This document shows, piece by piece, positions 11,905 to 32,371 of a DNA stretch of 32,371 nt. Position 1 is the stretch's first letter. Each line of letters opens with the position of its first letter. Source of the DNA: Patescibacteria group bacterium (GTDB lineage Bacteria; Patescibacteriota; Minisyncoccia; Minisyncoccales; JAHCRE01); contig JAHCRE010000016.1 in NCBI GenBank assembly GCA_020148145.1, positions 132,456 through 164,826 on the forward strand, given 5' to 3'. Both the position numbers and the translations under genes were made by a program. Below the pieces are notes generated by a model, which ran no database searches, was not told the DNA's origin, and worked only from the letters and a program-made list of their open reading frames with translations.

Positions 11905-13608
11905 TTATCTTCCTAAAATCTCGTTAATCTTAGCTCTGGTTGTTCTTCCAACAAAACCTGTTCCTTCAGTCAATTCCCAGGGAGCTAAAATATCTTTAGC
12001 ATATTTTTCCTGGAATCTAATAGCAGCAGTTTTGGTTAAAGAAAGAAAATTACCAGTTACCAAACCCTCTGGATAAATTTCAGATCCTTGGGATTTCAAA
12101 AATTCTTGAAGACAACGAACTTCTTGGTTATTCATTAATCCGTAATATAAATTGTTTTCAAGTTTTTGACAGAAAGGTTTCTCTCCTTGAGTGGCTAAAA
12201 TAGCATTTATTTCGGCCAGAACTTTATTAATTTCTCTTTTTAATTCTTCAATTTGAGCTAGAAGTTTTTTTATTAACTCTGCCTCTTCTTGGGTCTTAAC
12301 AATGGAAGCTGACCAGGAAAATTGATAAGAAGGTTCAAAACCATCAAAGCCTGTAACTTCGTTTTGGATAGAAGGGATAATTACTAAAGAAACATTTTGA
12401 GTACCAAAATCTGAAATAAAAATTTCCCCTTTTTGATTTTTATCAACTAAAAGAAATTCAATAGTTGAATCACCGAAAGAATCTCTTATAACATAAGGAA
12501 TTTTAAATTCAACTGAAGGATTTCCTTCAAATTCAAATTTTAAATCTCCTTTTCCGCCAACAAATTTATACCAATTTCCAGACCAATTTTTAGTAGTATC
12601 GATAAGAGTTAAAGCACTTTCTCCAGTGAGGGGCAAAAAATTAATTAAAGGAACAATATGTAAATCCTTTAAATTTTGATTTAAATAACAATACTTTTCC
12701 CCGAGAGTACAGTCATTTACTAAAACAGCGATTGTCCAATCAGTGAAAATCTGAGAAAACTCAATATCTGAACCATTTTTACTTAAGGCTTCATTTAAAG
12801 AAGGGATGCCAACTTTTTTTGAATGTAAAGAATCAATTAAAATTTCTTTCCCGTAATGATCCACTAAATATTGGAAAAAAAGATTTAGGACTCCGTAATC
12901 TTGGGGTTTATTCTGCCATTCGGTAATGGAATCTGAAGGATTTTTTAAAAACCTTTCCACTCTTTTTTGAAGATTACTTCCTTCATAAATATCATCGTAA
13001 CCGAGTAAAGTAATAGCTGTTTCTGATCGAGCCTCATTTAACCAGACTTCCTCCACTATTCCTTGTTCTCTTTCTTGTTGATTGAAAGTAATTAAATGTT
13101 GAAATTCGTGGGCAAGAAAGCTTTTAGCCAAGAGGTTGGTAATATAATTAGCATTTAAATAAACCATCTCTCTTTCATTTGAATTTGAAACCTGTAAACG
13201 AGAGTATTCATCGCCACTTTTAAAATATCCGCCAACCTCTTCCCTCATTGGATGGATTAAGATAGTAATTCTTTCCTCTCCATCGATTCCTGGTTTCCAT
13301 TCCTGGCCAAAAGTAGAAGTTAAAAAGGGATAAATTTTATTTTTAAATTCCTCACCTAAAGAACTCAAAGTTTGATAAACTTCATTTTGAGGACTAAAAC
13401 TCCACCATTTTTCGTCAATGTAAAAATAAAGTTCAGGAGTAATTTTTACTAAGGTGGTAGAAAGTTGCGACCTCTCTGATAAATCATAAGAAGATTCAAC
13501 ATAAAATTCCTGACTCTCCCCTATTTGAGCCGCCTGAAAATAAAGAGGTATTACCAAAGATATCAATAGAACCCCAACAAAAATTTTGAATTTGGTTTTC
13601 TTAAACAT
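11905..13608 (-). CDS. secreted M30-like zinc metallopeptidase with peptidoglycan-binding domain
   Basis: A 567-aa exported protein. The N-terminus is a signal peptide or anchor: basic MFKKTKFK followed by a hydrophobic core (about 9-26). The catalytic region has LAHEFQHLITFNQ, an HExxH zinc site (H167, E168, H171) with WLNEARSE some 20 residues later supplying a likely third ligand, as in hyicolysin-like M30 peptidases. Beta-rich segments follow (about 330-430), then a coiled-coil-like helix (AELIKKLLAQIEELKREI, about 440-475), and a C-terminal PG_binding_1-type domain (about 490-565: VRCLQEFLKSQG, GNFLSLTKTAAIRFQEKY, GRTTRAKINEIL). Likely works on surface proteins while held in the cell wall. 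Its own promoter lies a few nt upstream; not part of the polysaccharide operon. Confidence 0.82.
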   Translation of the reverse strand: MFKKTKFKIFVGVLLISLVIPLYFQAAQIGESQEFYVESSYDLSERSQLSTTLVKITPELYFYIDEKWWSFSPQNEVYQTLSSLGEEFKNKIYPFLTSTFGQEWKPGIDGEERITILIHPMREEVGGYFKSGDEYSRLQVSNSNEREMVYLNANYITNLLAKSFLAHEFQHLITFNQQEREQGIVEEVWLNEARSETAITLLGYDDIYEGSNLQKRVERFLKNPSDSITEWQNKPQDYGVLNLFFQYLVDHYGKEILIDSLHSKKVGIPSLNEALSKNGSDIEFSQIFTDWTIAVLVNDCTLGEKYCYLNQNLKDLHIVPLINFLPLTGESALTLIDTTKNWSGNWYKFVGGKGDLKFEFEGNPSVEFKIPYVIRDSFGDSTIEFLLVDKNQKGEIFISDFGTQNVSLVIIPSIQNEVTGFDGFEPSYQFSWSASIVKTQEEAELIKKLLAQIEELKREINKVLAEINAILATQGEKPFCQKLENNLYYGLMNNQEVRCLQEFLKSQGSEIYPEGLVTGNFLSLTKTAAIRFQEKYAKDILAPWELTEGTGFVGRTTRAKINEILGR

Positions 13609-13721: not shown

Positions 13722-15095
13722 CTATTTAAAAATAAGCTTGATTGTCTTCAAAATAATTTCTAAATCTAAAAAGAAAGAGCGATTTTTAATATAATAAAGA
13801 TCGTACTGAAATTTTTCTTTAGCTTCTTCGACTGAAGTTGAGGGAGGAAAATTTAGTTGGGCCCAGCCAGTGAAGCCCGGCCTGATTATATAACGCAAAG
13901 AGTAAAAAGGAATTTCCCTTTCAAAAATTTTGGCTAATCTTATCCATTCAGGCCGCGGCCCAACAAAACTTATGTCTCCTTTTAAAATATTAAGAAATTG
14001 AGGGAGTTCGTCCAAATAAAATTTTCTCAAAATTTTACCCACCCTGATAATTTGATTGGGGTCTCTTTCTCGCCAGAGCTCTTTATCTTGATTTAAAGAA
14101 ACTTTCATTGTTCGAAATTTGTATAAAGTAAAAATTTTTCTGTCTTTTCCTACTCTTTTTTGAAGGAAAAAAATGGGACCTGGAGAATCAAGTTTTATAG
14201 CTAAAGCAATAAAAGGTAAAAAAACTATGGTAATTAGAATTCCTAAAAAAGAAAAAACTATATCAAGGCTTCTTTTTAGGATTTCATCGATTTTTCTTTC
14301 TACTTGGGAAACATTTTCTAAAAACCAAAGCTCATCTGCAGTTTCAATTAAAACTTTTTTACTCAGATTCTCATAAAAATCAGCGAAATTAATAAAGTTT
14401 AATTTTAAAGGAATATTTGAGAAAATTTCCTTTACTAATTTTTCGTTTTTGTAAAAACTTGGAGTAAAAACTACTGTTTCAACTCTCTCTTTCTCTATAA
14501 TTTTTTTTAGTTGAGATATATCGGAAGTAACTCCATACTTTGCTAAGTTAGAAATTATCGCCGATTCTTTCGAAGAAACAGTATTATAAATAAGAGACAC
14601 TTCATGGTCTCCTTCTCGAAGAGAATTTGTTAATAGTTCAGAAAACTTCGGATTAAATTCAATAATCACTATTTTTTCTTTAAAACTAAGGAGTTTTAAA
14701 ATCCAAATAAAAACAAATCGCCAGATCAAAAAAAGACAGGAGAAAAATAGAACATCTAAAAATAAAATTGTTTTTGGTGTAATGGCTAATTGAGGTTGGA
14801 GATAAAAATAAATTGTTCCTGTAGCTCCAGCAAAAAAGATAAAAATTATTAAATTTCTAAAGAAAGAATAAATTCTTTTCAGAAAAGAGATTTTATAAAA
14901 ATCTAAAATGAAAAGAAATAAAAGCCAAAAAAAATAGAAAATCGAAAAATGAAAAACGAAAATTTTGGTTTGGGTGCCAGGCCAAAAAGAAAAGTCTTTA
15001 TACCTTAGAGCTAATGTCAAAAAAAGGGCGAAATACATTAGTAAAATGTCGCCCAATATTAAACAAACTTCAAGGAAACTTCTTCTCCCTCGCAT
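13722..15095 (-). CDS. polyprenyl-phosphate sugar-1-phosphate transferase (WbaP/CpsE type)
   Basis: Starts the polysaccharide repeat unit by moving a sugar-1-phosphate from a UDP-sugar to undecaprenyl phosphate. The 457-aa protein has four to five hydrophobic helices in the first ~135 residues, a Rossmann-like cytoplasmic region (about 140-260), one more hydrophobic segment inside KRSLDIVFSFLGIL (from 274), and the full C-terminal bacterial sugar-transferase domain: SPGPIFFLQKRVGK, FTLYKFRTMK, LRKFYLDELPQFLNIL, GDISFVGPRPE and RPGFTGWAQ. The sugar (Glc, Gal or GalNAc-type) cannot be told. It is last in the operon, 4 nt after the Wzz-like gene and just before the terminator. Confidence 0.93.
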   Translation of the reverse strand: MRGRRSFLEVCLILGDILLMYFALFLTLALRYKDFSFWPGTQTKIFVFHFSIFYFFWLLFLFILDFYKISFLKRIYSFFRNLIIFIFFAGATGTIYFYLQPQLAITPKTILFLDVLFFSCLFLIWRFVFIWILKLLSFKEKIVIIEFNPKFSELLTNSLREGDHEVSLIYNTVSSKESAIISNLAKYGVTSDISQLKKIIEKERVETVVFTPSFYKNEKLVKEIFSNIPLKLNFINFADFYENLSKKVLIETADELWFLENVSQVERKIDEILKRSLDIVFSFLGILITIVFLPFIALAIKLDSPGPIFFLQKRVGKDRKIFTLYKFRTMKVSLNQDKELWRERDPNQIIRVGKILRKFYLDELPQFLNILKGDISFVGPRPEWIRLAKIFEREIPFYSLRYIIRPGFTGWAQLNFPPSTSVEEAKEKFQYDLYYIKNRSFFLDLEIILKTIKLIFK

Positions 15096-15099
15096 AAAT

Positions 15100-15759
15100 T
15101 TATTCTTTTAGTTGGTATTTATTTTTCTCCCACCACTCTTTTCCAAAAACTGAAAATATCCCAAGGAAAATTCCTAAGGCTCCACCGAAAATCAAATTCA
15201 AAATTAGGTTCGGTTTTAGTGGTGAAACAATGGGTTCTGCTATTATTTTGGTTGATCGCAGATCGCCAATTTGCTTTTGAAGATTATAAATCTCTAACTG
15301 AAGACCTGCTATTTCTTGATCTTTGGAGATTAAAAAGGGAATATCTTTCTGCAATTTTCCAATGGTTTTTTCTAAAATATCTCTCTGGGAATCTATTTTC
15401 TCAGTATGATCGATTAAAACTGACTTATTTATACTTCCTAAAATCTTTTTAGTATCTTCTGGATCTGTTGAAACAGTCTCAATTTTTACTAAATTTGTAT
15501 TTTTTGGATTATTAACTTCTATATCCGGATAATCTCCGTAAACACCAATCTTTATTTTTTCCATTATCTGAGAAGGGTCTTCCAATAGGTCTTTGTCGAT
15601 TTTTCCGATTTCAATAGTCGTCTCAATTTTATAAGTCTTTGGTTGTAAAATAGTTAAAACTCCAGCTATTATCACCCCGAGTAAAAATAAACCCAAAATC
15701 AACCCCTTTCTTCTTGAAAACACCCTAATATATTCCATTAAATTTATTTCCTCTTCCAT
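15100..15759 (-). CDS. Wzz-like polysaccharide co-polymerase
   Basis: A 219-aa chain-length or export regulator. EEEINLMEYIRVFSRRKG at the start is the usual Wzz N-terminus before TM1 (about 16-36). The periplasmic part contains a beta-rich start and a coiled-coil region (about 140-168). TM2 lies near 184-204, preceded by PIVSPLKPN, the proline-rich motif typical of these proteins. The C-terminal tail is short and has no Walker motifs, so the tyrosine-kinase domain found in BY-kinase relatives is absent. It is shorter than E. coli Wzz. Its place between the glycosyltransferase genes and the initiating transferase fits a Wzx/Wzy-type pathway. Confidence 0.85.
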   Translation of the reverse strand: MEEEINLMEYIRVFSRRKGLILGLFLLGVIIAGVLTILQPKTYKIETTIEIGKIDKDLLEDPSQIMEKIKIGVYGDYPDIEVNNPKNTNLVKIETVSTDPEDTKKILGSINKSVLIDHTEKIDSQRDILEKTIGKLQKDIPFLISKDQEIAGLQLEIYNLQKQIGDLRSTKIIAEPIVSPLKPNLILNLIFGGALGIFLGIFSVFGKEWWEKNKYQLKE

Positions 15760-17042: not shown

Positions 17043-18023
17043 TCAATAATAGAAAATTTTAAATATTATTTTATAAATTAAAGCTAATATTTTAAAAAAT
17101 AGGTTTTTTTGATAATTCTCCCATTTGACTGCGTATTTCTTAAACACGGGTTCTTTAGTCAATTTAAATAAAGTTTTTAACTGGATAATATGGAGTTTTT
17201 GATAAAAGGGGCTAGCTAATGTCCTCAATTTAGTTTGGGATAAGTCATATAAAGACCAAAAGCCAATATCGTATCTTTTTAAATTATTCTTTAGGGTCTC
17301 GAGACAATCATCGTATAATCTTTTTGCTAAACTTTCTCGGGTCAGTAAGTAATAATCGTAAACTCCCCAGAGCGCCCAAATGAATCCGTTAAGAATATGA
17401 GTTGGTGGCTCTACGATATATTCTTCAAGCCAAACATATCCATCTTCATCTTGATATTTTACACCGCCTCGTTTAGTTTCTTTTAAGAATGATTTAAAGA
17501 CTAAGCGAGCTGAACTAAGATATTTTTCATCTCGAGTTAGAAGATAAGCCCGGGCTAAAACAGAAATACCCTGGCCTTGAGAAAGGGCAGAATACCAAGG
17601 AGCTTTAAGTTTTACTTTATATTCCCAATCAAAGTGATGCATCCAGACCCTTAAACCATGTCTATTAGTCTCTAAGTTATTAACCAACCAGTCTGCTTGT
17701 CTTAGAAAAATCTTAAGATGTTTTTCATTGCCTGTCTTTTTATAAAAGTTATAATGCCCTAATCCATATTGAGCAATAGCAACAGGATTATATTGTTTAC
17801 CAATTAAACCTCGATAATTAAGTAACGGCACCTTATTTTTATCAAAAGGCCCAGGATAATTAGCTTTATATAAAAAGAGCATATAATACTGATCTATTTC
17901 TTTTATTGGAGTATCTTCATTTACCTGAGGAGTACCGTGCCAAAAAGTTAACTGACTCTGGTTTTTTCCAAGATAAGTAAGAAAAATACGTTGCCAATAA
18001 GAAAAACGGTCTTTTAACCTCAT
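17043..18023 (-). CDS. D-glucuronyl C5-epimerase-like protein
   Basis: A 326-aa protein resembling the C-terminal catalytic half of heparan sulfate/heparosan glucuronyl C5-epimerase, which changes GlcA to IdoA in a finished polymer. Characteristic blocks: NPVAIAQYGLGHYNFY (79-94), SALSQGQGISVLARAYLLT (145-163), EEYxxxPxxxxLNGF (200-214), YDIGFWSLYDL (251-261) and SPFYQKLHIIQL (271-282). Tyr202, Tyr259 and Tyr274 fall where human GLCE has tyrosines needed for catalysis (from memory of that family). It lacks the beta-rich N-terminal part of the animal enzyme and a signal peptide; residues 309-326 are hydrophobic and basic and may bind the membrane. Overlaps the oxidoreductase gene by ATGA. Epimerase activity is inferred; a related uronic-acid epimerase is possible. 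Confidence 0.8.
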   Translation of the reverse strand: MRLKDRFSYWQRIFLTYLGKNQSQLTFWHGTPQVNEDTPIKEIDQYYMLFLYKANYPGPFDKNKVPLLNYRGLIGKQYNPVAIAQYGLGHYNFYKKTGNEKHLKIFLRQADWLVNNLETNRHGLRVWMHHFDWEYKVKLKAPWYSALSQGQGISVLARAYLLTRDEKYLSSARLVFKSFLKETKRGGVKYQDEDGYVWLEEYIVEPPTHILNGFIWALWGVYDYYLLTRESLAKRLYDDCLETLKNNLKRYDIGFWSLYDLSQTKLRTLASPFYQKLHIIQLKTLFKLTKEPVFKKYAVKWENYQKNLFFKILALIYKIIFKIFYY

Positions 18024-20188
18024 AAATTGATTGAAACATCAATTACTTTCTTTCCTTTAATTGATTTCAAAATTGCAAAGGTAGCTTGAGTAGAATAAAA
18101 AAGTTCTTTAAGAGAAATTAATGAAGGCTTTCCTTGTTGAATTGCTTCAATAAATTTTTTAAATTCATCTCTATGCCCCTTATCCTGCCCAAACCCTTTT
18201 AAACTTTTCTTTCCTTTTTTGGCAAAAATTGTAGCTCCTTTAAAGTCATCAATAGTCATTACTTTCTCAGGGCCATATATTTCTATATATTCTTTCGGAA
18301 AACCCTTATCGCCAAGAGAAGTATAAATAATAACTCCCCTTGATCCATTTTCAAAGTCAATAGTAACGATAAGATTATCCTGGGTAGTAATTGCTCTGGC
18401 TAAGGGAATAAGGCTAGCGTAAATTCTTTGGGGAGGAGAATTAGCTAAAAATTGTAATAAATCAACAAAGTGACAAACTTCACCTAAAATTCTCCCTCCA
18501 CCCTCAACTGGATCGTGAACCCAATGTTCTTTAGAAATGAAACCAGCATTAACTCGATAAAGCATCATTAGAGGATAATGTTTAGCAGTGAATATTTTTT
18601 TAGCTTCTAATATAAGAGGAGCAAAACGACGATTGAATCCAACCATTAAACGCCCTCGGGAAGATTTAGCTGCTTTAATAACTTCTTTTAGTTTCTGTTC
18701 ATTCAAGGCGAGAGGTTTTTCAACATGGACATTTTTATTATTTTTGAGAGCTTCTATTGTAATTTTCGCGTGAAGATTATGACGAGTGGCAATAATAACT
18801 AAATCAATGTTTGGATCTGCAATAATTTTTCGATAATTACAGGTAGCATATTCCCCTTTATACTTTTTAGCAACTCTTTCTGCCTTTCCTCCTTCAGTAT
18901 CGGCTATTCCGTAAATCTTAGCTGTTTTTATTTCCTGAATAATAGGCAAGACTATATTTTGAGCAAAGTTTCCAACTCCAATGAGGCCAATATTAATCTG
19001 TTTTTTCCCTTTGTATTCTTTGCTCTCTTTTAAGAAAATAGTATCTTCTTGCCGTTTTTTTACATCATAAGAAAAAAGTACTCCGATAATCTCTTCTTGT
19101 TTTGGATTCTCTAAAATAAGTTTGTAAGCTTGTTTAACTTGCTCAATATCAAAAGTATGAGTAATAAGATTTTCAGGTTGAATTTTCTTCTCGCTTGCTA
19201 ATCTCAAAAATTCCTCCATATTTCTTTTTTCTGTCCAGCGAACATATCCTATTGGATAATCGTGACCTTTTTCTTCGTATTCTTTATCATATCTGCCAGG
19301 ACCATAAGACCTAGAGATTAAAAGATCAATTTCTTTTTTATAATAAAGGCGGCGGGGAATATCTAATCCAATATCTCCTACCACTGAAACCCGACCCTTT
19401 TCTCTTAGAATTTTACCAGCTAATTCAATAGGTTGGTTGCTTCTAGTAGCAGCAGTAATAATAACTGCATCCAGGCCTTGACCTTTAGTAAAACCCTTGA
19501 CTAAATTTTCAATATCTTCTTGATCGATAACTCCTCCTTTTTCCATTCCCAAACTCTGAGCTCGTTTTACTTTTTCGGGCTTAATATCAAAGCCTATCAC
19601 TGGAAAACCATAGCCTTTTAGAATCTGAACAGTGAGTTGACCAATAAAACCCAAACCAATTACAGCTACTTTCTCGCCTGGGGTAAGATTTGCTCTTCTA
19701 ACACCCTGAATGGCAATTGCCCCCAAGGTAGTAAAAGCTGCCTCTTTAAAAGAAACATTTTTGGGAATTTTAACACAAAGATTTTTAGGGACATTAATTA
19801 TTTCAGCGTGGCAGGCATAACCTTGACCTCCACAAGCTACCCTATCTCTTACACTAAAATCTTCCACCCCCTCCCCTACTGCTATAACTTCTCCTGCTGA
19901 ACTATAACCCAAAGGAAGCAGTTCATCTAATTTTTGTATTGTCTTATGATAAGTAGAAAAAAGTCCTTCTTGTTTCATTTTATTTAAAACTTCCCTAACT
20001 AAATCGGGGCGAGCCCTGGCTTTTTCTATTAAACTCTTTTTACCCATTCTGATAGCTGATTTTTCTGTGCCTAAACTAAGCAAAGAGTAGTGATTTTTTA
20101 TCAAAACACATCCTTCTTTAACAATGGGGGCGGGAACCTCAATTAATTCTATTTCACCAGTTTTAAAATTTTGGAATATTTGTTTCAT
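18020..20188 (-). CDS. bi-domain oxidoreductase (MDR dehydrogenase fused to Gfo/Idh/MocA)
   Basis: A 722-aa fusion. Residues 1-375 form a medium-chain zinc-dehydrogenase-like domain: GYSSAGEVIAVGEGV (94-108), VRDRVACGGQGYACHAEI (113-130), Rossmann loop GLGFIG (178-183). Residues 395-722 form a Gfo/Idh/MocA domain: INIGLIGVGNFAQ (398-410) for NAD(P), IIATRHNLHA (465-474), and the catalytic-lysine motif EKP (490-492), followed by GGGRILGEVCHFVDLLQFL with the conserved His. Such fusions are typical of polysaccharide clusters and may oxidise or isomerise a nucleotide sugar (for example to a uronic or 2,3-diamino acid); the substrate is unknown. It lies between the deacetylase and epimerase genes, supporting a role in making or modifying an acidic sugar. 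Confidence 0.9.
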   Translation of the reverse strand: MKQIFQNFKTGEIELIEVPAPIVKEGCVLIKNHYSLLSLGTEKSAIRMGKKSLIEKARARPDLVREVLNKMKQEGLFSTYHKTIQKLDELLPLGYSSAGEVIAVGEGVEDFSVRDRVACGGQGYACHAEIINVPKNLCVKIPKNVSFKEAAFTTLGAIAIQGVRRANLTPGEKVAVIGLGFIGQLTVQILKGYGFPVIGFDIKPEKVKRAQSLGMEKGGVIDQEDIENLVKGFTKGQGLDAVIITAATRSNQPIELAGKILREKGRVSVVGDIGLDIPRRLYYKKEIDLLISRSYGPGRYDKEYEEKGHDYPIGYVRWTEKRNMEEFLRLASEKKIQPENLITHTFDIEQVKQAYKLILENPKQEEIIGVLFSYDVKKRQEDTIFLKESKEYKGKKQINIGLIGVGNFAQNIVLPIIQEIKTAKIYGIADTEGGKAERVAKKYKGEYATCNYRKIIADPNIDLVIIATRHNLHAKITIEALKNNKNVHVEKPLALNEQKLKEVIKAAKSSRGRLMVGFNRRFAPLILEAKKIFTAKHYPLMMLYRVNAGFISKEHWVHDPVEGGGRILGEVCHFVDLLQFLANSPPQRIYASLIPLARAITTQDNLIVTIDFENGSRGVIIYTSLGDKGFPKEYIEIYGPEKVMTIDDFKGATIFAKKGKKSLKGFGQDKGHRDEFKKFIEAIQQGKPSLISLKELFYSTQATFAILKSIKGKKVIDVSINL

Positions 20189-24102: not shown

Positions 24103-25494
24103 TTAGTCTTTAGAAAGATTCTTAAGCCTAAACAATATTCCCATAAAAAACCAGAAAAATATTAAAGTTGTGGCGTCACCAAAGATCTGGTGTCCCTTAA
24201 AGAACCAAAGGAGCATAAGAATTGAAAATAGACAAATGGAAAGACCCAAACTATATAAAGCTGTCTTTCTCAATCTCTTAAGTCGCCTTAACCAACTAAA
24301 GAATAGTTGGTCATAAAAGAAAATAAAAAGTAAAAGTCCTATAAAGCCTAATTCATATAATACCTTACCAAGGCCGCTCTCAATTCCCAATCTCTTGCTG
24401 GCAATCTCTTTTTCATACCATTCTTGACCCCCTGGTATATAGTGTAAACCCTGAGACCTTACCCCTAGCCCCAATCCAAAAAATCCAGAAAACTCTGCAG
24501 CAAAAGCAATTTCTGTTTTAGCTAGGGAAATACGATCCTTGATTGAAGATATAGAATTCCAAAAATATTCACTAATATCCTTAAAACCCAAATAGACCAT
24601 ACTTCCTGCAATTACCAAAATCAGGAAAACAACCATCAAGGAGCTACTAAGCCGGAATTTAAACAATTTTAATAATTGATATCTATAATAAATAAATATC
24701 CAAAATAGAATTCCTATTATAGATAAATACATTGGTGCTCTCCGACCACTAACAAATATTCCCAGCAAGGCAAGTATAGTCGAGGTAAATAATAGGAATC
24801 TCTGTTTTAATGAGGTTTCAGAATAAAACAAAAGCCCTAATCCCAATAGAAATAAAAAAAGGCTAAATCGAGCGTAGCGCTCAGCAGTACCAAAAATAGA
24901 AGGAACTAATTTTATCTTTCCTGCTTTAAAATAGTGTATCTCATGAGCCGCTTCTAGTGGCTGAACAAAACTAGAAGGTAGGTCATAAAAAAATATATAT
25001 TGAAAAACAGCAATTAAAGCCAAAAGAATACTAGTGTAAACCAAAATCCGACAAAACTTTATCAAACTTTCTTTTTCTGAAAACATATAATACCCAAGAA
25101 AAAGTATAGGTAAGTACCAAAGATAACTTCTGAATCCAATCGCTGCGAACCACATGTTTGGCAAATTTGGATTCAGTGCTTCCACAACACACCATCCACC
25201 AAAAATAAAAAGCCCTGCAAAGAAAGGCGGTTTCCAGATTTTTTTCTGTTTAATTATAAAAGTAGCAAAAAAGGCAAAATAGGTAAGGAGAATGAGAACT
25301 TCTTTCAAAAGCATTATTTGAGGAGGTTGGCCCGGGAAGAGTCTCCGAATAATATCTTCGAGATAAAGCCAAATAAAAATTGAGATAATACCAATACGCC
25401 ATTGACGAATTATGGCCAAAAATAGAATAACCAGGGAAGGGACAATCAATAAAAAAAGTGGGTTCTCAATAATTAGATTAAAAGGAATATTCAT
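24103..25494 (-). CDS. Wzy/O-antigen ligase-like membrane polymerase
   Basis: A 463-aa protein with about ten to twelve hydrophobic helices and a large loop around residues 320-380 (SISSIKDRISLAKTEIAF, GLGLGVRSQGLHYIPGGQEWYEKE), as in the periplasmic loop of Wzy/WaaL-type enzymes. FVSGRRAPMYLSIIG gives the conserved basic pair before the loop. It would join lipid-linked repeat units into a polymer or transfer the polymer to an acceptor. The co-occurring Wzz-like protein favours a polymerase; a ligase role cannot be excluded. Confidence 0.82.
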   Translation of the reverse strand: MNIPFNLIIENPLFLLIVPSLVILFLAIIRQWRIGIISIFIWLYLEDIIRRLFPGQPPQIMLLKEVLILLTYFAFFATFIIKQKKIWKPPFFAGLFIFGGWCVVEALNPNLPNMWFAAIGFRSYLWYLPILFLGYYMFSEKESLIKFCRILVYTSILLALIAVFQYIFFYDLPSSFVQPLEAAHEIHYFKAGKIKLVPSIFGTAERYARFSLFLFLLGLGLLFYSETSLKQRFLLFTSTILALLGIFVSGRRAPMYLSIIGILFWIFIYYRYQLLKLFKFRLSSSLMVVFLILVIAGSMVYLGFKDISEYFWNSISSIKDRISLAKTEIAFAAEFSGFFGLGLGVRSQGLHYIPGGQEWYEKEIASKRLGIESGLGKVLYELGFIGLLLFIFFYDQLFFSWLRRLKRLRKTALYSLGLSICLFSILMLLWFFKGHQIFGDATTLIFFWFFMGILFRLKNLSKD

Positions 25495-26669: not shown

Positions 26670-27462
26670 ACTTTTTGCTAGCTATTAAAATAGTAGTTAC
26701 TGCAAAAAAAATATTTTTGGTTGAAAAGGAGCCATAAAATAAAAAAGAAACCAACTTGCTTATCAGATAAAGAAGATTACGTATGACATAACCTGCCAAA
26801 TTTCTCCAGACAGGCCTTGATTTTCTAAATTTCTTATAGAAAGACCAAGGCACTCTCTGCCTATATCCTTCACCATAACTAATATTTTCGATGAAAAAAT
26901 TATTCTCATTTAATATCAATTTTAGTTCCGTAAGCGTGAAAGGGTGGAGGTGTTTGTAAGGATTGGGGTGAGTCTCTAATTCAAATTGTGGAAATTTATT
27001 TTTAAAAATAAAATGCCTTTTACTTCTTAAATTGTGGATATTAGGTGTTGTAAGAATTAATTTTCCCTTTGGTTTTAATACTCTAGATATCTCTTCAATG
27101 GCAAACCAAGGATTTTTTAAATGTTCTATCACCTCAATAAATGTTACATAATCAAAAAAGTTATCCGGATATGGTAGGGGGTCACAATCTGAATTAACTT
27201 CTGAAACTACAAGACCAGATTCAGTAATGTAATCTCGTTTTAATTCAGTTACATAAACTTTTCTTCTCCACATTTTTGAAACAGCTTTAGCAAAATGTCC
27301 TGTGCCACCCCCGATATCTAAAAGTTGACCAGGGCTGCATTTTTCCAGAATTTTCAAAATACTATTGTGCGTTCCGGGATATGCTGCTTCTGGCATGCGT
27401 TCAATATCGTAAAAATCTTGACTCTGCTCTATCTTTTTGACTGAAGCGATTTTTTTCTTCAT
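26659..27462 (-). CDS. class I SAM-dependent methyltransferase
   Basis: A 267-aa methyltransferase, with the start set at 27462 because that ATG overlaps the stop of the GT4 gene upstream (ATGA); the ORF can be read 22 codons longer, but that extension lies within the neighbour. Motifs: LLDIGGGTGHFAKAV (motif I, with GGGTG), VYVTELKRD with the acidic ribose contact, LPYPDNFFDYVTFIEVIEHL (motif IV, EVIEH), and RVLKPKGKLILTTPN. A hydrophobic, basic C-terminal region suggests contact with membrane-bound lipid-linked sugars. Probably methylates the polymer or a sugar intermediate. Confidence 0.83.
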   Translation of the reverse strand: MKKKIASVKKIEQSQDFYDIERMPEAAYPGTHNSILKILEKCSPGQLLDIGGGTGHFAKAVSKMWRRKVYVTELKRDYITESGLVVSEVNSDCDPLPYPDNFFDYVTFIEVIEHLKNPWFAIEEISRVLKPKGKLILTTPNIHNLRSKRHFIFKNKFPQFELETHPNPYKHLHPFTLTELKLILNENNFFIENISYGEGYRQRVPWSFYKKFRKSRPVWRNLAGYVIRNLLYLISKLVSFLFYGSFSTKNIFFAVTTILIASKKYAK

Positions 27463-28646
27463 AAACTTGGGGTTGAAATAAACTCTAATGCTTTTAAAAT
27501 TGCTTTTTCGCAAACATCGTAATTCCAATCAGAGATAATTTTCAACGACTTCTCCCCCATTTTCTTGCACTTCTCTAAATCGGAAATCAACTCTTTAAGA
27601 TATTTAATAAGCATTTCTATATTACCTTTGAGATAAATAAATCCATTTTCTTCCCGACGGACAAGGTCAACTGCGGCTGTTACTCCATCGGTAGTAATAA
27701 TAGGGAGGCTAAAACACATAGCCTCATTAATCACTAATCCCCACTTTTCTCTTATTGATGGTAAAACAAAGATATCAGCAACAACGTAATACTTGCCCAG
27801 CTCTGATTGATTTTTAAATCCCAAAAAGTAAACATTTTTAATATTTCTTTCTTTTTTATAGCTTTCTAGTCTTTCTCTATCCTCTCCTTCTCCTACAAAA
27901 ATTAGAGCAGCTTTTTCTTGAATTTTTTCAAAAGCCTTTAAAAGGTCAAAAGGGGCCTTGATTTTATAAATTTTCCCTACGTAAAGAATTATTGGAAGCT
28001 TAAATGGAATGTTAAGCTCTTTTTTAATTTTTTCTTTTTTGGGCTGCCATTTTCTTCTCTGCTCAAAAAAATAATCATTATCAACTGAGTAGGGTCCTAA
28101 AAATAACTTATGCTTAGAAACTCCGTAATATGAATAAAACTCAGAGCTGCGAGTACCAATAGGTAGAAAAGCTTTTATTCTCCGAAATAATGGTCTAAGA
28201 ACGACATTCTTTATTATTCGCCGCCATTCAGGCTGATGGGATAGAAGAAGAGTTTCTCCTCGAAATATAATTGGAGTTCGGGTTATCCAAGCTCCAAAAA
28301 AAGCTAACCAACTGGTGAATAAAGTATAACCATGAACCAAAATAGCGTTGTAGCGCTCTCTCCAAAGCTCCTTTATAATCCCGGGATTTATCAATCCCCA
28401 AAACTCAGTAGATGGATTTGGAGAGTGATTCTTAAGGAATTTATAGAAATAACCTTCCAAAAGAGGCTTATCCCATTTAACAGGAATTCCAAATTTAGGA
28501 TCTAATTTTTTATTTACGCCGAAGTCAGAACAAAAATAAACCATAAGATCTATTTTAGGATGCTCGGCCAATTTCTGGAAAAGGGGGGTTTGATAAGGAA
28601 TGGGATGAGAGGTTAAAATTGCTAATTTATATTTATTTCTTTTCAT
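27459..28646 (-). CDS. GT4 glycosyltransferase
   Basis: A 395-aa GT-B enzyme. It starts YKLAILTSHPIPYQTPLFQKL, a start common among GT4 proteins of EPS clusters; GETLLLSHQPEWRR lies in the first domain; LPIILYVGKIYKIKAPFDLL and ALIFVGEGEDRE form the donor domain, and EKWGLVINEAMCFSLPII is the E-x7-E helix (W and F variants). Starts inside the end of the fusion gene upstream (14-nt overlap). The donor sugar cannot be deduced. Confidence 0.89.
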   Translation of the reverse strand: MKRNKYKLAILTSHPIPYQTPLFQKLAEHPKIDLMVYFCSDFGVNKKLDPKFGIPVKWDKPLLEGYFYKFLKNHSPNPSTEFWGLINPGIIKELWRERYNAILVHGYTLFTSWLAFFGAWITRTPIIFRGETLLLSHQPEWRRIIKNVVLRPLFRRIKAFLPIGTRSSEFYSYYGVSKHKLFLGPYSVDNDYFFEQRRKWQPKKEKIKKELNIPFKLPIILYVGKIYKIKAPFDLLKAFEKIQEKAALIFVGEGEDRERLESYKKERNIKNVYFLGFKNQSELGKYYVVADIFVLPSIREKWGLVINEAMCFSLPIITTDGVTAAVDLVRREENGFIYLKGNIEMLIKYLKELISDLEKCKKMGEKSLKIISDWNYDVCEKAILKALEFISTPSL

Positions 28647-30702
28647 TTTTTTTAAACTCCCGTATATTCTCCAATTTAATATCTATTAAATGTTTTCTTT
28701 TTAAATTTACTGAAAGAATACAGGGATGAATACAAAAGCATTTTTTAACCGCTGCAGAAATTTTCTCCCACTTCTCTGACTTTAATATTTTTTTTACATC
28801 GTAATTGAATTCTCTTATATTATGGATTGGCTTAACTAATTCGCAAAAAGAAATGTCCCCATTAGCATAGATAACTAAATTTAATTCAGGTGCGACACAG
28901 GGAAATAAAAATTTTTTATCTCTAAGAATTTCTAAAGTGTATTTATTAAGTAAGTTCATATTTAAGTTCTGCCATTGATTCTCTAATAAAAATTCGCATA
29001 TTTCTTCGCATTTTTCCATAGATGGTAATTTAACTAAGCGATCATTTTCAATAGACATTGGTTCAAAAATTAAATGTTGGTCTACTCCATAAACTCTTCC
29101 ATCTCGGAACCAATTAAAGCTAAAATCTACGCCTAAATCTATAGAAACAAAATTAAATAAATCATAAAAATCTTTATAATTCATCTCCATTAAAGTAATT
29201 TGAGCCCTTACTCTGAAATTCGGACTATCCTGTTTTAATTCTTTTAACAAAAGAATTGTTTTTACTGCATTCTTGAACGCACCTTTCTGTCTTCTAATTT
29301 TATCATGCGTTTCTTCTAGCCCATCTAATGAAACAGTGATAACTAATTTTTGTCCCTTGGGTTTATTTGTTAAAATTTTATTTACTTTATTTTTTATTAA
29401 TTCTGGAGCAAAACCATTTGTATTCATGCCAATACTTGAAACAAAAGGAGGTTCTTGAAATATTTTACAAATCTCTACAATATCCCTTCTTAGAAAAGGC
29501 TCTCCACCGGTAATAGATACTCCACCAATATTTTTTCTTAAAGAATGGTAAGTTTTTTCAATTTCGGGAATTGTTAGTTCTTTTTTTTTGATTTTAGGAC
29601 TGTCACCTAAAAAACAATGAACACAAGAATAATTACATTGATTAGTGATAAACAAATAAAGTCCTCTTTTCCCACGTTTTCTTTTAATCCAAAATAAAAC
29701 ACTTCCCATAAAAGCAATAATTTTGTTCTCTAATAATATAGGGAGACGCAGAATTTTTTCAGAGAACTGAGAAAAAAGGCTTTGGTTTTCAGAAAGAAAA
29801 TTTATTCGGTTTCTCATTTTAATTACAGGAAGAAAAAGAAAAAGCCAAATCCAAAAGAAAAAGCTTGTAAAATACTGCAATATTAAAAAGCAAAACTTTA
29901 TTTTGTTGGAAGTGTTTTTAATTCTTTTTACTCCATTTCTTAAAAAGTTGAGATAAAAATCTAAACCTTTAAATATTGAAAAATTTTTAAAGAATAAATA
30001 AACTTTTTTATGAAAACGACTATGGTTTATTTCTGTTCTTCGGGGAAAATATTGATGCCAAAATTTCACTTTTGGCGTTATTGCGACTTGGAAACCAATT
30101 TTTTTTATCCGAAAAGATAAATCAACATCCTCAGGATAGTAAAAATAAAAAGGGTCGAATCCTCCAACTTTCTCAAAAACTTCTCGCCTTAATAAAGCAA
30201 AGTCGGATTGAATATAATCAACATCAAAATTTATTTTCCGAGGGATTTGATTTAAATAAGTAAGGTTTATCTCAAGCCCTTTGTCAAATTTTAGTAATCC
30301 ATGTTGGGTTCTGGATAATTTTTCATCAAGAAATCCAATGCCCCCAAGTTCTCCTAATTTTTCGTGTTGACTAATTTCCCCTACTGCATTTGAAATTATA
30401 CTTTTATCTACTAAAACAACATCTGAATCTAAAAAAAGAATGTATTCACCCTTGCTTTCCAAAAATCCTTGATTTCTTCCTATACAAGCTCCTTTATTTT
30501 TCCTATTTAAAATCAGTTTAATTTTTCTTTTTTTCGCCTGAAATTTAAGAAAATTAACTGTGCTATCAAAAGAGCCATTGTCAGCTACGATGATTTCTTT
30601 ATGATGGTAATCCTGGGAATATACAGAATCAAGACACATTTTGCATGCTTTCTTTCTATTGTGAGTAAGAATAATTATGGACACTAAAGGTTTATTTTGC
30701 AT
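28633..30702 (-). CDS. fusion of GT2 glycosyltransferase and radical SAM/SPASM enzyme
   Basis: One 689-aa ORF with two catalytic parts. Residues 1-250 are a GT2 of the rhamnosyl/GT-A type: VSIIILTHNRKKACKMCLDSV, IIVADNGSFDST, metal motif LDSDV (DxD, 92-94), and FYYPEDVDLSFRIKKIGF (ED motif). Hydrophobic helices follow at about 270-296 and 326-339. Residues 345-560 are a radical SAM domain with the cluster motif C356-xxx-C360-xx-C363, SITGGEPFLRRD (397-407) and MNTNG (426-430). Cysteines 602, 620, 655, 657 and 661 near the end, with NLVIYANGDISFC between, form a SPASM-like auxiliary-cluster region. The ORF is continuous, with no stop or frame change between the parts. It may add and then chemically modify a sugar at the membrane; no close described counterpart is known to me. 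Confidence 0.88.
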   Translation of the reverse strand: MQNKPLVSIIILTHNRKKACKMCLDSVYSQDYHHKEIIVADNGSFDSTVNFLKFQAKKRKIKLILNRKNKGACIGRNQGFLESKGEYILFLDSDVVLVDKSIISNAVGEISQHEKLGELGGIGFLDEKLSRTQHGLLKFDKGLEINLTYLNQIPRKINFDVDYIQSDFALLRREVFEKVGGFDPFYFYYPEDVDLSFRIKKIGFQVAITPKVKFWHQYFPRRTEINHSRFHKKVYLFFKNFSIFKGLDFYLNFLRNGVKRIKNTSNKIKFCFLILQYFTSFFFWIWLFLFLPVIKMRNRINFLSENQSLFSQFSEKILRLPILLENKIIAFMGSVLFWIKRKRGKRGLYLFITNQCNYSCVHCFLGDSPKIKKKELTIPEIEKTYHSLRKNIGGVSITGGEPFLRRDIVEICKIFQEPPFVSSIGMNTNGFAPELIKNKVNKILTNKPKGQKLVITVSLDGLEETHDKIRRQKGAFKNAVKTILLLKELKQDSPNFRVRAQITLMEMNYKDFYDLFNFVSIDLGVDFSFNWFRDGRVYGVDQHLIFEPMSIENDRLVKLPSMEKCEEICEFLLENQWQNLNMNLLNKYTLEILRDKKFLFPCVAPELNLVIYANGDISFCELVKPIHNIREFNYDVKKILKSEKWEKISAAVKKCFCIHPCILSVNLKRKHLIDIKLENIREFKKNEKK

Positions 30703-30711
30703 ATTGGTTTT

Positions 30712-31836
30712 TCACTTTAAAGAAAGAATAAGATTTCTCACTCTGTTTTTAAATTTATCAAATCCATAAACTTCACAGGCTCTTTTTCTTAAATATCGGC
30801 TATCTAACAATCTTTCTGGCACTTCTTTTTTTAATACTCTGATAATTGCATTGGTAATTTCGTCTACATTATCTGGGTCAACTAAAATCCCTAGTTCACC
30901 ATCTAAAAGAGGTTCTCGGGAAGCATCTTTTTTTCCAGCAATTACTGGTTTTCCGCAAGCTAAGGCCTCTAAAAAAACGATTCCGAAACCTTCTTTCTTA
31001 CTGGGCATTACAAAAACATCGCAAAGATTATAATAATCTGGTAATTCTTTCTCTGACACAAAACCAGTAAAAATCACTTTCTCCCTCACTTCCAGTTTAA
31101 CAGCTAAATTCTTTACTCTTGGAATATCATCACCTCTACCAACAATAAGATATTTGACATTAGGAATTTGTTTTAAAATATAAGGTAAAGCTTTAATGAC
31201 TTTATCATAACCTTTATTCTTCTCTGTAGTAGCCAACCGCGCGACAGTAAGGATAATTTTATTTCCCTCTAACTTATATTTTTTTATTAAACTTAAGTTT
31301 TTCGGTTTGGGTTGAAGACGATTAACATCAACGGTGTTGGGCAAAAGAAAAAATTTATTATCTTTTAAAATGACTTGTTGTTTTATTTTAGACTGAGTGA
31401 AATGACTCACCGAGACAATAAGAAAGGCTTTTTTAAATGCTTTTTTCTTTATCTTGCTTTTAATATCCCAGACTTCAATCCCATGAGTAATAATAATATA
31501 CTGTTTACCCAATAAATATTTAGCGAAAAGAGCAAGAGGAGCAATATTAACATGGCCTATGAAATTTACTCTGGGATCTTGAACTAAGTTTAACCAAATA
31601 AAATTTATACACAGAATAATCTTATTTATAACTCTTAAGGGGGTCTTCCCACAACAAATAAATTTTATCTTTGAATTCGATTTAAATAAAGAAGGGGCTT
31701 TTTTATCATTTAAAAGCAAAGCAATGTACTGATTATCTTCTTTAATTTGGAAAAGAGCCTTAAGGAACTGTCGATTAAGGGTAGGAATACCTCCTCCTTT
31801 ACTGAAAACTTCCGAGAAGACTAATAAATATTTCAT
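30712..31836 (-). CDS. GT4 glycosyltransferase
   Basis: A 374-aa GT-B enzyme when started at the ATG 31834-31836 (MKYLLVFSEVFSKGGGIPTLN), which gives a proper N-terminal strand and glycine loop and follows the upstream stop by 8 nt with AAGGA nearby; the ORF can be read 40 codons longer, but that extension lies within the methyltransferase gene. Donor-domain motifs: IILTVARLATTEKNKGYDKVI, YLIVGRGDD and EGFGIVFLEALACGKPVIAG (E-x7-E). Part of the polysaccharide operon, 9 nt before the fusion gene. Sugar unknown. Confidence 0.9.
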   Translation of the reverse strand: MKYLLVFSEVFSKGGGIPTLNRQFLKALFQIKEDNQYIALLLNDKKAPSLFKSNSKIKFICCGKTPLRVINKIILCINFIWLNLVQDPRVNFIGHVNIAPLALFAKYLLGKQYIIITHGIEVWDIKSKIKKKAFKKAFLIVSVSHFTQSKIKQQVILKDNKFFLLPNTVDVNRLQPKPKNLSLIKKYKLEGNKIILTVARLATTEKNKGYDKVIKALPYILKQIPNVKYLIVGRGDDIPRVKNLAVKLEVREKVIFTGFVSEKELPDYYNLCDVFVMPSKKEGFGIVFLEALACGKPVIAGKKDASREPLLDGELGILVDPDNVDEITNAIIRVLKKEVPERLLDSRYLRKRACEVYGFDKFKNRVRNLILSLK

Positions 31837-31844
31837 AAGTAGAT

Positions 31845-32371
31845 TTATTCCTTTTTTTCTCCAACCACAATAAGATTTTGAGTTAGAATCCCACTCCCAG
31901 GACTCCCAGTTTCTATTAGAAGATAAGTCCTTAAAAATACTCTTATAACGCGCCAAAGCAAAAATCTTACCAAGCTTTTTACGCCGTGAATTATAGGTTC
32001 CACAGGATAAAAAGAAATTTTTTTAAAACCGCAGGTCTTAAGAACCTGACCCAAACTTTTAGTAGTAAAAGCTGTCTCATGGGTAAAATCTCCATATCTT
32101 CTCTTCCCCCAGAAGGGACCTTCACTGTTTAAAGTAAGAATAATGATTTTCCCTTCTTTCTTAAGCGCTCTATAAATTTCATCTAAAAGTAGGATGATTT
32201 CATCTTTCTTAAAATGCTCTAGAACATCTCTCAAAGTAATTAAATCAAGTGTATTCTGACGATTTTTAAGATATTCGAGAATGTCTGCTCTCTCAAGATT
32301 TCTAATACCCAATTCCCTGGCAGTATCGATCTGTTCCTGGGAAATATCTATTCCATAACTGTTCTGATAGC
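31845..32371 (-). CDS. SAM-dependent methyltransferase, 5' part beyond the window
   Basis: The frame stays open to the right edge: the last bases encode YQNSYGIDISQEQIDTAREL, i.e. the strand after motif I with its acidic residue, so the codon at 32312 (TTG) is not the true start. Seen inside: ITLRDVLEHFKKDEIILLLDEI (motif IV and helix), YRALKKEGKIIILTLNSEG, and THETAFTTKSLGQVLKTCGF, typical of type-11 methyltransferases in polysaccharide clusters. Motif I (GxGxG) lies outside the window. A hydrophobic basic stretch (VRFLLWRVIRVFLRTYLLI) is present near the end. Confidence 0.8.
   Translation of the reverse strand, partial: YQNSYGIDISQEQIDTARELGIRNLERADILEYLKNRQNTLDLITLRDVLEHFKKDEIILLLDEIYRALKKEGKIIILTLNSEGPFWGKRRYGDFTHETAFTTKSLGQVLKTCGFKKISFYPVEPIIHGVKSLVRFLLWRVIRVFLRTYLLIETGSPGSGILTQNLIVVGEKKE

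Follow-up and report, generated by a model that had tools for sequence, protein, structure and literature searches.

A glycosyltransferase and a radical S-adenosylmethionine (SAM) enzyme act one after the other in the BlsD/BlsE system. BlsD attaches glucuronate to cytosine, and the glucoside formed is the substrate that BlsE decarboxylates (PMC3715490). Here we describe a gene that is predicted to join two such activities in one protein. It lies in a stretch of 32,371 nucleotides (hereafter the window) from a Patescibacteria group bacterium (GenBank assembly GCA_020148145.1, contig JAHCRE010000016.1, positions 132,456 to 164,826). The gene encodes a glycosyltransferase family 2 (GT2) domain followed by a radical SAM domain. 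An original prediction, made from the sequence of the window alone, suggested that a sugar is transferred and then modified by radical chemistry, and that no enzyme of this domain order has been described. Our literature search, which covered few subscription papers, found no description of a GT2-radical SAM fusion either. We consider the protein, with a probability of roughly 55%, to be a bifunctional membrane-anchored enzyme of Wzx/Wzy exopolysaccharide assembly that first transfers a sugar and then tailors the product. A transfer followed by tailoring of a lipid-linked glycan is favoured because of the BlsD/BlsE precedent.

In that precedent, the product of a glycosyltransferase is modified on its sugar by a Twitch-like radical SAM enzyme. 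BlsE (structure 7vob) is a top fold match of the radical half, and it has a CxC near the C-terminus as the fusion protein does; its motifs are CxxxCxxC, GGEP and a C-terminal CxCxxC, namely C317xC319xxC322 (PMC3715490). The differences are also clear. BlsD and BlsE are two separate enzymes that act on a small nucleoside outside any polysaccharide operon, and BlsE has only about 15% identity to the radical half over the fold alignment. By analogy, we regard BlsE as the most telling precedent for the fusion protein.

Both the sequence profile and the fold comparison rank SkfB (6efn; PMC6231123) first among the radical SAM matches. It has the same Cys-x17-Cys...CxC auxiliary site, but the N-terminal domain of the fusion protein is a glycosyltransferase. 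BtrN (4m7t), a weak match of the radical half by profile and fold, is a Twitch dehydrogenase of an aminocyclitol, a small sugar-like substrate, and has one auxiliary cluster with four cysteines. It is a stand-alone enzyme and is taken to be devoid of the CxC ligand pair, because this pair has been reported among solved structures only in SkfB and PqqE (PMC6231123).

The mycofactocin pathway also includes both a GT2 enzyme (MftF) and a SPASM/Twitch radical SAM enzyme (MftC). The MftF model matched the fusion protein at 2.8e-20, far below its cut-off. The mycofactocin enzymes differ from our protein in being unfused, in their peptide-derived product and in the radical SAM subfamily, and they are not known to lie in a polysaccharide operon. 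Finally, Wzx/Wzy exopolysaccharide clusters resemble the studied locus in having an initiating transferase, Wzz, Wzy, a flippase and many glycosyltransferases in one run. We know of no such cluster with a GT2-radical SAM fusion.

Domain architecture and integrity of the fusion gene

The gene is a single unbroken open reading frame (ORF) with an ATG start (Table 1); the original prediction gave the same 689-residue frame without its strand. Each residue named there is found at its position: D92-S-D94, E191-D192, C356, C360, C363, GGEP at 399-402, C602, C620, C655, C657 and C661. The Pfam search proposed there places both Glycos_transf_2 (92.4 bits, cut-off 23.3) and Radical_SAM (66.3 bits, cut-off 29.5) above their thresholds. 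The catalytic ED of the GT2 half (residues 191-192) lies just past the end of the Pfam match, and the DxD and ED motifs are conserved among the partner GT2 proteins described below. Thus both halves hold complete predicted catalytic motifs. In Foldseek the GT2 half matches GT-A glycosyltransferases (6p61, 6yv7), with PcManGT and K4CP among the matches. The AlphaFold model (40-row alignment) has two well-formed confident domains joined by helices, with a mean predicted local distance difference test score (pLDDT) of 81.5. The radical SAM half modelled alone reaches 88.2.

The linker was expected to contain hydrophobic helices, and this is true of one strong segment at about residues 271-293, while a second one at about 320-340 is weaker. 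An amphipathic helix covers approximately residues 310-341, and all the linker helices are modelled with low-to-middling confidence. Unfused GT2 partners also have a pair of hydrophobic segments in the corresponding position. The linker of the fusion protein is probably a membrane anchor.

The C-terminal part was originally assigned to SPASM. The SPASM motif has seven cysteines, CX9-15GX4C-gap-CX2CX5CX3C-gap-C, which serve two auxiliary clusters (PMC6231123). This motif is absent from the protein, and PF13186 scores 16.7 bits (E-value 0.0089) with a cut-off of 21.5. All five late cysteines of the original prediction are present, but only four of them are invariant. No more than seven cysteines are constant in an alignment of 22 relatives; three belong to the SAM cluster and four to the C-terminal part. 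The former (C356, C360, C363) as well as C602 and C620 are kept in 22/22 sequences, C655 and C657 in 21/22 (the remaining sequence is incomplete), and C661 in 13/22. The spacing C602-x17-C620...C655-x-C657 equals that of the SkfB auxiliary ligands Cys333, Cys351, Cys385 and Cys387 (PMC6231123). At the sequence level the protein fits the definition of a Twitch domain of the SkfB type, which has one auxiliary cluster, with cysteines before and after a beta hairpin and a CxC. By these signatures the C-terminal part is of the one-cluster Twitch type like SkfB and not a canonical seven-cysteine SPASM domain. Loss of the cluster cysteines in relatives, which would have spoken against the original prediction, is not seen anywhere in the clade of the fusion protein; the auxiliary ones are lost in one fusion outside this clade. 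In that gene (genome G120, L060:4667-6484) the cysteines of the SAM cluster stay and those of the auxiliary cluster are nearly all gone.

Could an error in assembly or sequencing have created the fusion from two genes that overlap? Most relatives have an overlapping two-gene form, which one indel at the overlap would join, and the exact fusion gene is confirmed by no close relative. However, codon usage favours the frame of the ORF over codons 201-380 in all 30-codon windows except one, which is a tie in a hydrophobic stretch, and the other two frames over the junction are interrupted by stops. The longest homopolymers at the junction are three runs of 6, and no long repeat marking a mis-join was found. 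In tetranucleotide usage the region is like the remainder of the genome (r 0.87-0.95). Furthermore, fused ORFs occur in three other genomes, one of which (G852) belongs to the same clade. The original prediction would have been undermined by homologues that are always two genes; they are mostly, but not always so. An artefact is thus disfavoured by codon usage, tetranucleotide usage and the lack of a long repeat, and we deem it the least probable of all alternatives. Judged from the sequence, this is a single GT2-radical SAM fusion gene.

Relatives of the radical SAM domain and their linkage to GT2 genes

Relatives were collected by profile searches of about 1650 genomes and IMG/VR. The fused-profile searches mostly returned GT2-only genes and three candidates were scored per genome, therefore all counts of fusions are lower bounds. 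A scan of the GTDB contig collection with the full protein gave only one weak match, to the core. The nearest radical SAM relatives within the same order stand alone and are about 350-390 amino acids long. In three genomes (G098, G027 and G155) the radical SAM gene is immediately preceded by a GT2 gene, and the two overlap by 3 to 37 nt. Most unfused pairs have this arrangement, i.e., the GT2 gene comes first, with overlapping stop and start codons. The search for the same fusion elsewhere, suggested in the original prediction, brings the number of genomes with a fusion to at least four: besides the window these are G092 (635 amino acids), G120 (605 amino acids) and G852 (696 amino acids). Both domains were confirmed by Pfam in G092 and G120, and by local profiles in G852.

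A maximum-likelihood tree built from 39 radical SAM domains places the protein from the window in an 11-member clade (support 98/99). Every member of this clade is linked to GT2: two are fused (the window and G852), eight have a GT2 gene directly upstream and one downstream. We additionally tested 11 further sequences, which came from a clade profile search or from the same loci. Nine of them joined the clade (six with an adjacent GT2 gene, three with none), and the support for the resulting 20 members is 98/98. As a result, 17/20 members are GT2-linked, namely the two fusions and 15 proteins with a directly adjoining GT2 gene, mostly upstream. The same linkage is found in 5/30 sequences outside the clade (Fisher p 2e-6, with shared ancestry not corrected for). 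For other genes of the same loci, a GT2 gene directly adjoins only 19/119.

The fusions of G092 and G120 belong to other clades than that of the window. A single origin of all fusions was considered and rejected by a topology test (p-AU 2.6e-8, approximately unbiased test). It follows, as far as the tree is concerned, that the fusion arose at least three times independently. In the GT2 tree five unfused partners form a clade of their own (99/93), whose branching is largely parallel to that of the radical SAM tree. The pair seems to have been inherited together in one branch, with a change of partner in others.

Among the matches listed, no NCBIfam model comes near its cut-off for the clade. 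NirJ-type models match 11/11 clade members with a best E-value of 2e-28; the protein from the window and the first member are far below the NCBIfam cut-offs of the BlsE and NirJ families. We conclude that the fusion is real and recurrent and that it marks a conserved GT2-radical SAM partnership. Both halves are of known kinds; their combination and the radical SAM clade exposed by it are new.

Several observations concern the surroundings of the relatives. The fusion region of G092 (L029:3241-19792, G092:C7) contains some twelve consecutive radical SAM genes, B12-binding types among them. The contig encodes a TonB receptor and has tetranucleotide usage unlike the rest of the bin; it is probably a contaminant and not derived from a candidate phyla bacterium. 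Another extended tandem array of radical SAM genes (L030:6147-18843, G018:C7) has no adjacent GT2 gene. Three IMG/VR contigs filed as viral (L149, L150 and L151) carry members of the radical SAM clade, two of them with an adjacent GT2 gene. These contigs may be host DNA.

The exopolysaccharide locus

The fusion gene is part of a same-strand run of genes that extends from position 13722 through the end of the window into locus L126 (Table 1). The run includes genes for an initiating transferase, Wzz, Wzy, a flippase, WecB, an NAD-dependent sugar epimerase/dehydratase, several GT4 and GT2 enzymes, methyltransferases and a D-glucuronyl C5-epimerase-like (GLCE-like) protein. An initiating transferase, Wzx, Wzy and Wzz are thus all present, as in a Wzx/Wzy exopolysaccharide pathway. 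The GLCE-like epimerase that had been reported in the same operon is real.

Table 1. Features of the fusion gene and of the surrounding gene run in the window
Feature	Position	Strand	Evidence
GT2-radical SAM/Twitch fusion gene, 689 aa	28633..30702	-	ORF and translation; Pfam; AlphaFold2; codon usage
GT2 domain, aa 8-179, DxD 92-94	30166..30681	-	PF00535, 4e-26; motifs; Foldseek
Linker, aa 270-343, hydrophobic and amphipathic helices, probable membrane anchor	29671..29893	-	hydropathy; model helices
Radical SAM core, aa 352-519 (C356, C360, C363; GGEP 399-402)	29146..29649	-	PF04055, 5e-18
Twitch-like auxiliary cluster region, aa 602-661	28720..28899	-	C602-x17-C620-x34-C655-x-C657 and variable C661
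GT4 glycosyltransferase, next gene downstream, 14-nt overlap	27459..28646	-	PF00534, 2.1e-37
GT4 glycosyltransferase, next gene upstream, 9-nt gap	30712..31956	-	PF00534, 8e-42
Wzy-like O-antigen polymerase/ligase	24103..25494	-	PF04932, 31.8 bits, cut-off 31.7
D-glucuronyl C5-epimerase-like (GLCE-like) protein, same gene run	17043..18023	-	PF06662, 1.3e-53
Wzz-like chain-length protein	15100..15759	-	PF02706, 1.8e-07
Initiating polyprenyl-phosphate sugar-1-phosphate transferase	13722..15095	-	TIGR03025, 8.1e-95, above cut-off

Three further ORFs were observed in or near the run. The C5-epimerase-like gene is adjoined by a 722-aa ORF (18020-20188) with zinc-type alcohol dehydrogenase and Gfo/Idh/MocA oxidoreductase domains. 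At 11905-13608 a 567-aa protein without a Pfam match has 54% identity to L025:540-2255, which lies beside the GT2-radical SAM locus of G027. Upstream of the polysaccharide run, a small ORF that resembles a GIY-YIG nuclease (by eye only) is located at L126:5219-5539, with short repeated motifs on both sides.

Related loci are also glycan loci and contain B12-type radical SAM enzymes, carbamoyltransferases, a DegT aminotransferase and a thiamine pyrophosphate (TPP) enzyme. In G852, beside the other fused gene of the clade (L124:10362-14533), there are a sugar epimerase/dehydratase-like gene, a DegT aminotransferase and a TPP enzyme. Such neighbours suggest an unusual branched or deoxy sugar.

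Predicted function of the fusion protein

We propose the following scheme. With its intact GT-A motifs, the GT2 half would take a nucleotide sugar as donor and add the sugar to the polyprenyl-linked repeat unit that is growing at the cytoplasmic face. The C-terminal half would bind a [4Fe-4S] cluster at C356, C360 and C363 and cleave SAM, and the 5'-deoxyadenosyl radical would then remove hydrogen from the transferred sugar or a neighbouring one. The auxiliary Fe-S cluster at C602, C620, C655 and C657 may take an electron or hold the substrate. The outcome would be a net oxidation of the glycan, either dehydrogenation or oxidative decarboxylation, and not a cysteine-assisted epimerisation; by analogy, an oxidative radical step is the most likely one. 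Sugar transfer followed by radical modification, as first predicted, remains the best reading, with GT2 linkage in 17/20 members of the radical SAM clade. Uronate decarboxylation was considered as the specific reaction. Only a 265-aa relative of nucleotide-sugar dehydrogenases (L126:4417-5214) was found in the genome, and no canonical UDP-glucose dehydrogenase.

Several points weigh against this scheme. A uronate substrate is unsupported because of the mentioned lack of a canonical UDP-glucose dehydrogenase. The membrane topology is uncertain, as it is deduced from a single strong hydrophobic segment. Loci of this kind often contain GT2 genes, and no GT2 gene adjoins three members of the clade (G843, G961 and the IMG/VR locus L150), so the GT2 link is strong but not strict. 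The GT2 domains of the window, G852 and G098/G155 branch outside the main clade of partner GT2 proteins, and GT2 specificity may differ between pairs. The fold matches of the radical half are SkfB, BlsE, SuiB, MoaA, EpeE, anSME, viperin and BtrN, and the best radical SAM match in Foldseek, SkfB, is a peptide maturase. Fold similarity has no predictive value for the reaction in this group of enzymes, and sequence networks do not predict function in the subfamily of SkfB (PMC6231123).

The order of the two steps could be reversed: the radical half would first modify a nucleotide sugar or a free sugar precursor, and the GT2 half would transfer the product. The coupling of GT2 and radical SAM genes in either order would fit this (the GT2 gene is downstream in G080, L149 and L151), as would the unusual activated sugars made by neighbouring loci, for example with the DegT and TPP enzymes of G852. 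However, GT2 is upstream or fused N-terminally in 14/20 clade members. Moreover, the linker and the unfused GT2 partners look membrane-anchored, which is easier to reconcile with a lipid-linked than with a soluble substrate. We consider the reversed order unlikely.

More doubtful still is a radical epimerisation of the transferred sugar, a specific possibility of the original prediction that is now weakened. Radical epimerases use a cysteine as hydrogen donor. The invariant cysteines are only the three of the SAM cluster and the four that match the Twitch ligands; with one SAM cluster and one auxiliary cluster, no constant cysteine is left for this role. C661 cannot be an obligatory donor because it is missing in 8/21 readable relatives. 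The GLCE-like protein, encoded about 10 kb away, belongs to a different, non-radical family. Epimerisation draws some support from EpeE, a peptide epimerase among the fold matches, and from NeoN, a radical SAM epimerase that acts on a sugar-like antibiotic. In addition, one cysteine of the SkfB cluster site was seen 12 Å from the cluster (PMC6231123), and the corresponding one could be free here too.

A glycosylated peptide had also been put forward as the substrate, so that a peptide or protein would be glycosylated and radically modified, as in the maturation of glycoproteins or of ribosomally synthesised and post-translationally modified peptides (RiPPs). Sequence and fold matches to SkfB, SuiB, CteB and EpeE point in this direction. 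So does the MftF/MftC pair, with a weak match of the MftF model, as a GT2-radical SAM pair working on a peptide-derived cofactor. Nevertheless, the N-terminal domain is a GT2 and not a peptide-binding RRE, no RRE is present among the Pfam hits, and all peptide-maturase models are below their cut-offs. The abutting neighbours leave no space for a precursor gene, and the linked genes form a dense glycan operon. A peptide substrate is therefore improbable. Action of the radical half on the polyprenyl or lipid carrier instead of the sugar is highly improbable: the archaeal tetraether synthase 7tol ranks second among the PDB sequences matched by the clade profile (7e-16) and the Tes model matches 9/11 clade members, but the 7tol match is limited to the common core (profile positions 25-137), several unrelated radical SAM models match at least as well as the Tes model, and the linkage is to GT2 and not to lipid genes.

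A fusion is a sign that its two partners act on a common substrate. Through the fusion and the conserved pairing with GT2, a radical SAM clade that otherwise has no assigned function acquires a testable role, namely the remodelling of a glycan while it is being built. We tentatively suggest, at somewhat less than even odds, an undescribed two-part enzyme that performs radical chemistry directly on lipid-linked glycans during their assembly, and that is widespread in candidate phyla bacteria as an overlapping gene pair, sometimes fused. If this is true, radical SAM sugar chemistry is extended from small antibiotics to cell-surface polysaccharides. It would also broaden the sugar chemistry to be expected of bacteria with small genomes, in which surface polysaccharides have hardly been characterised.

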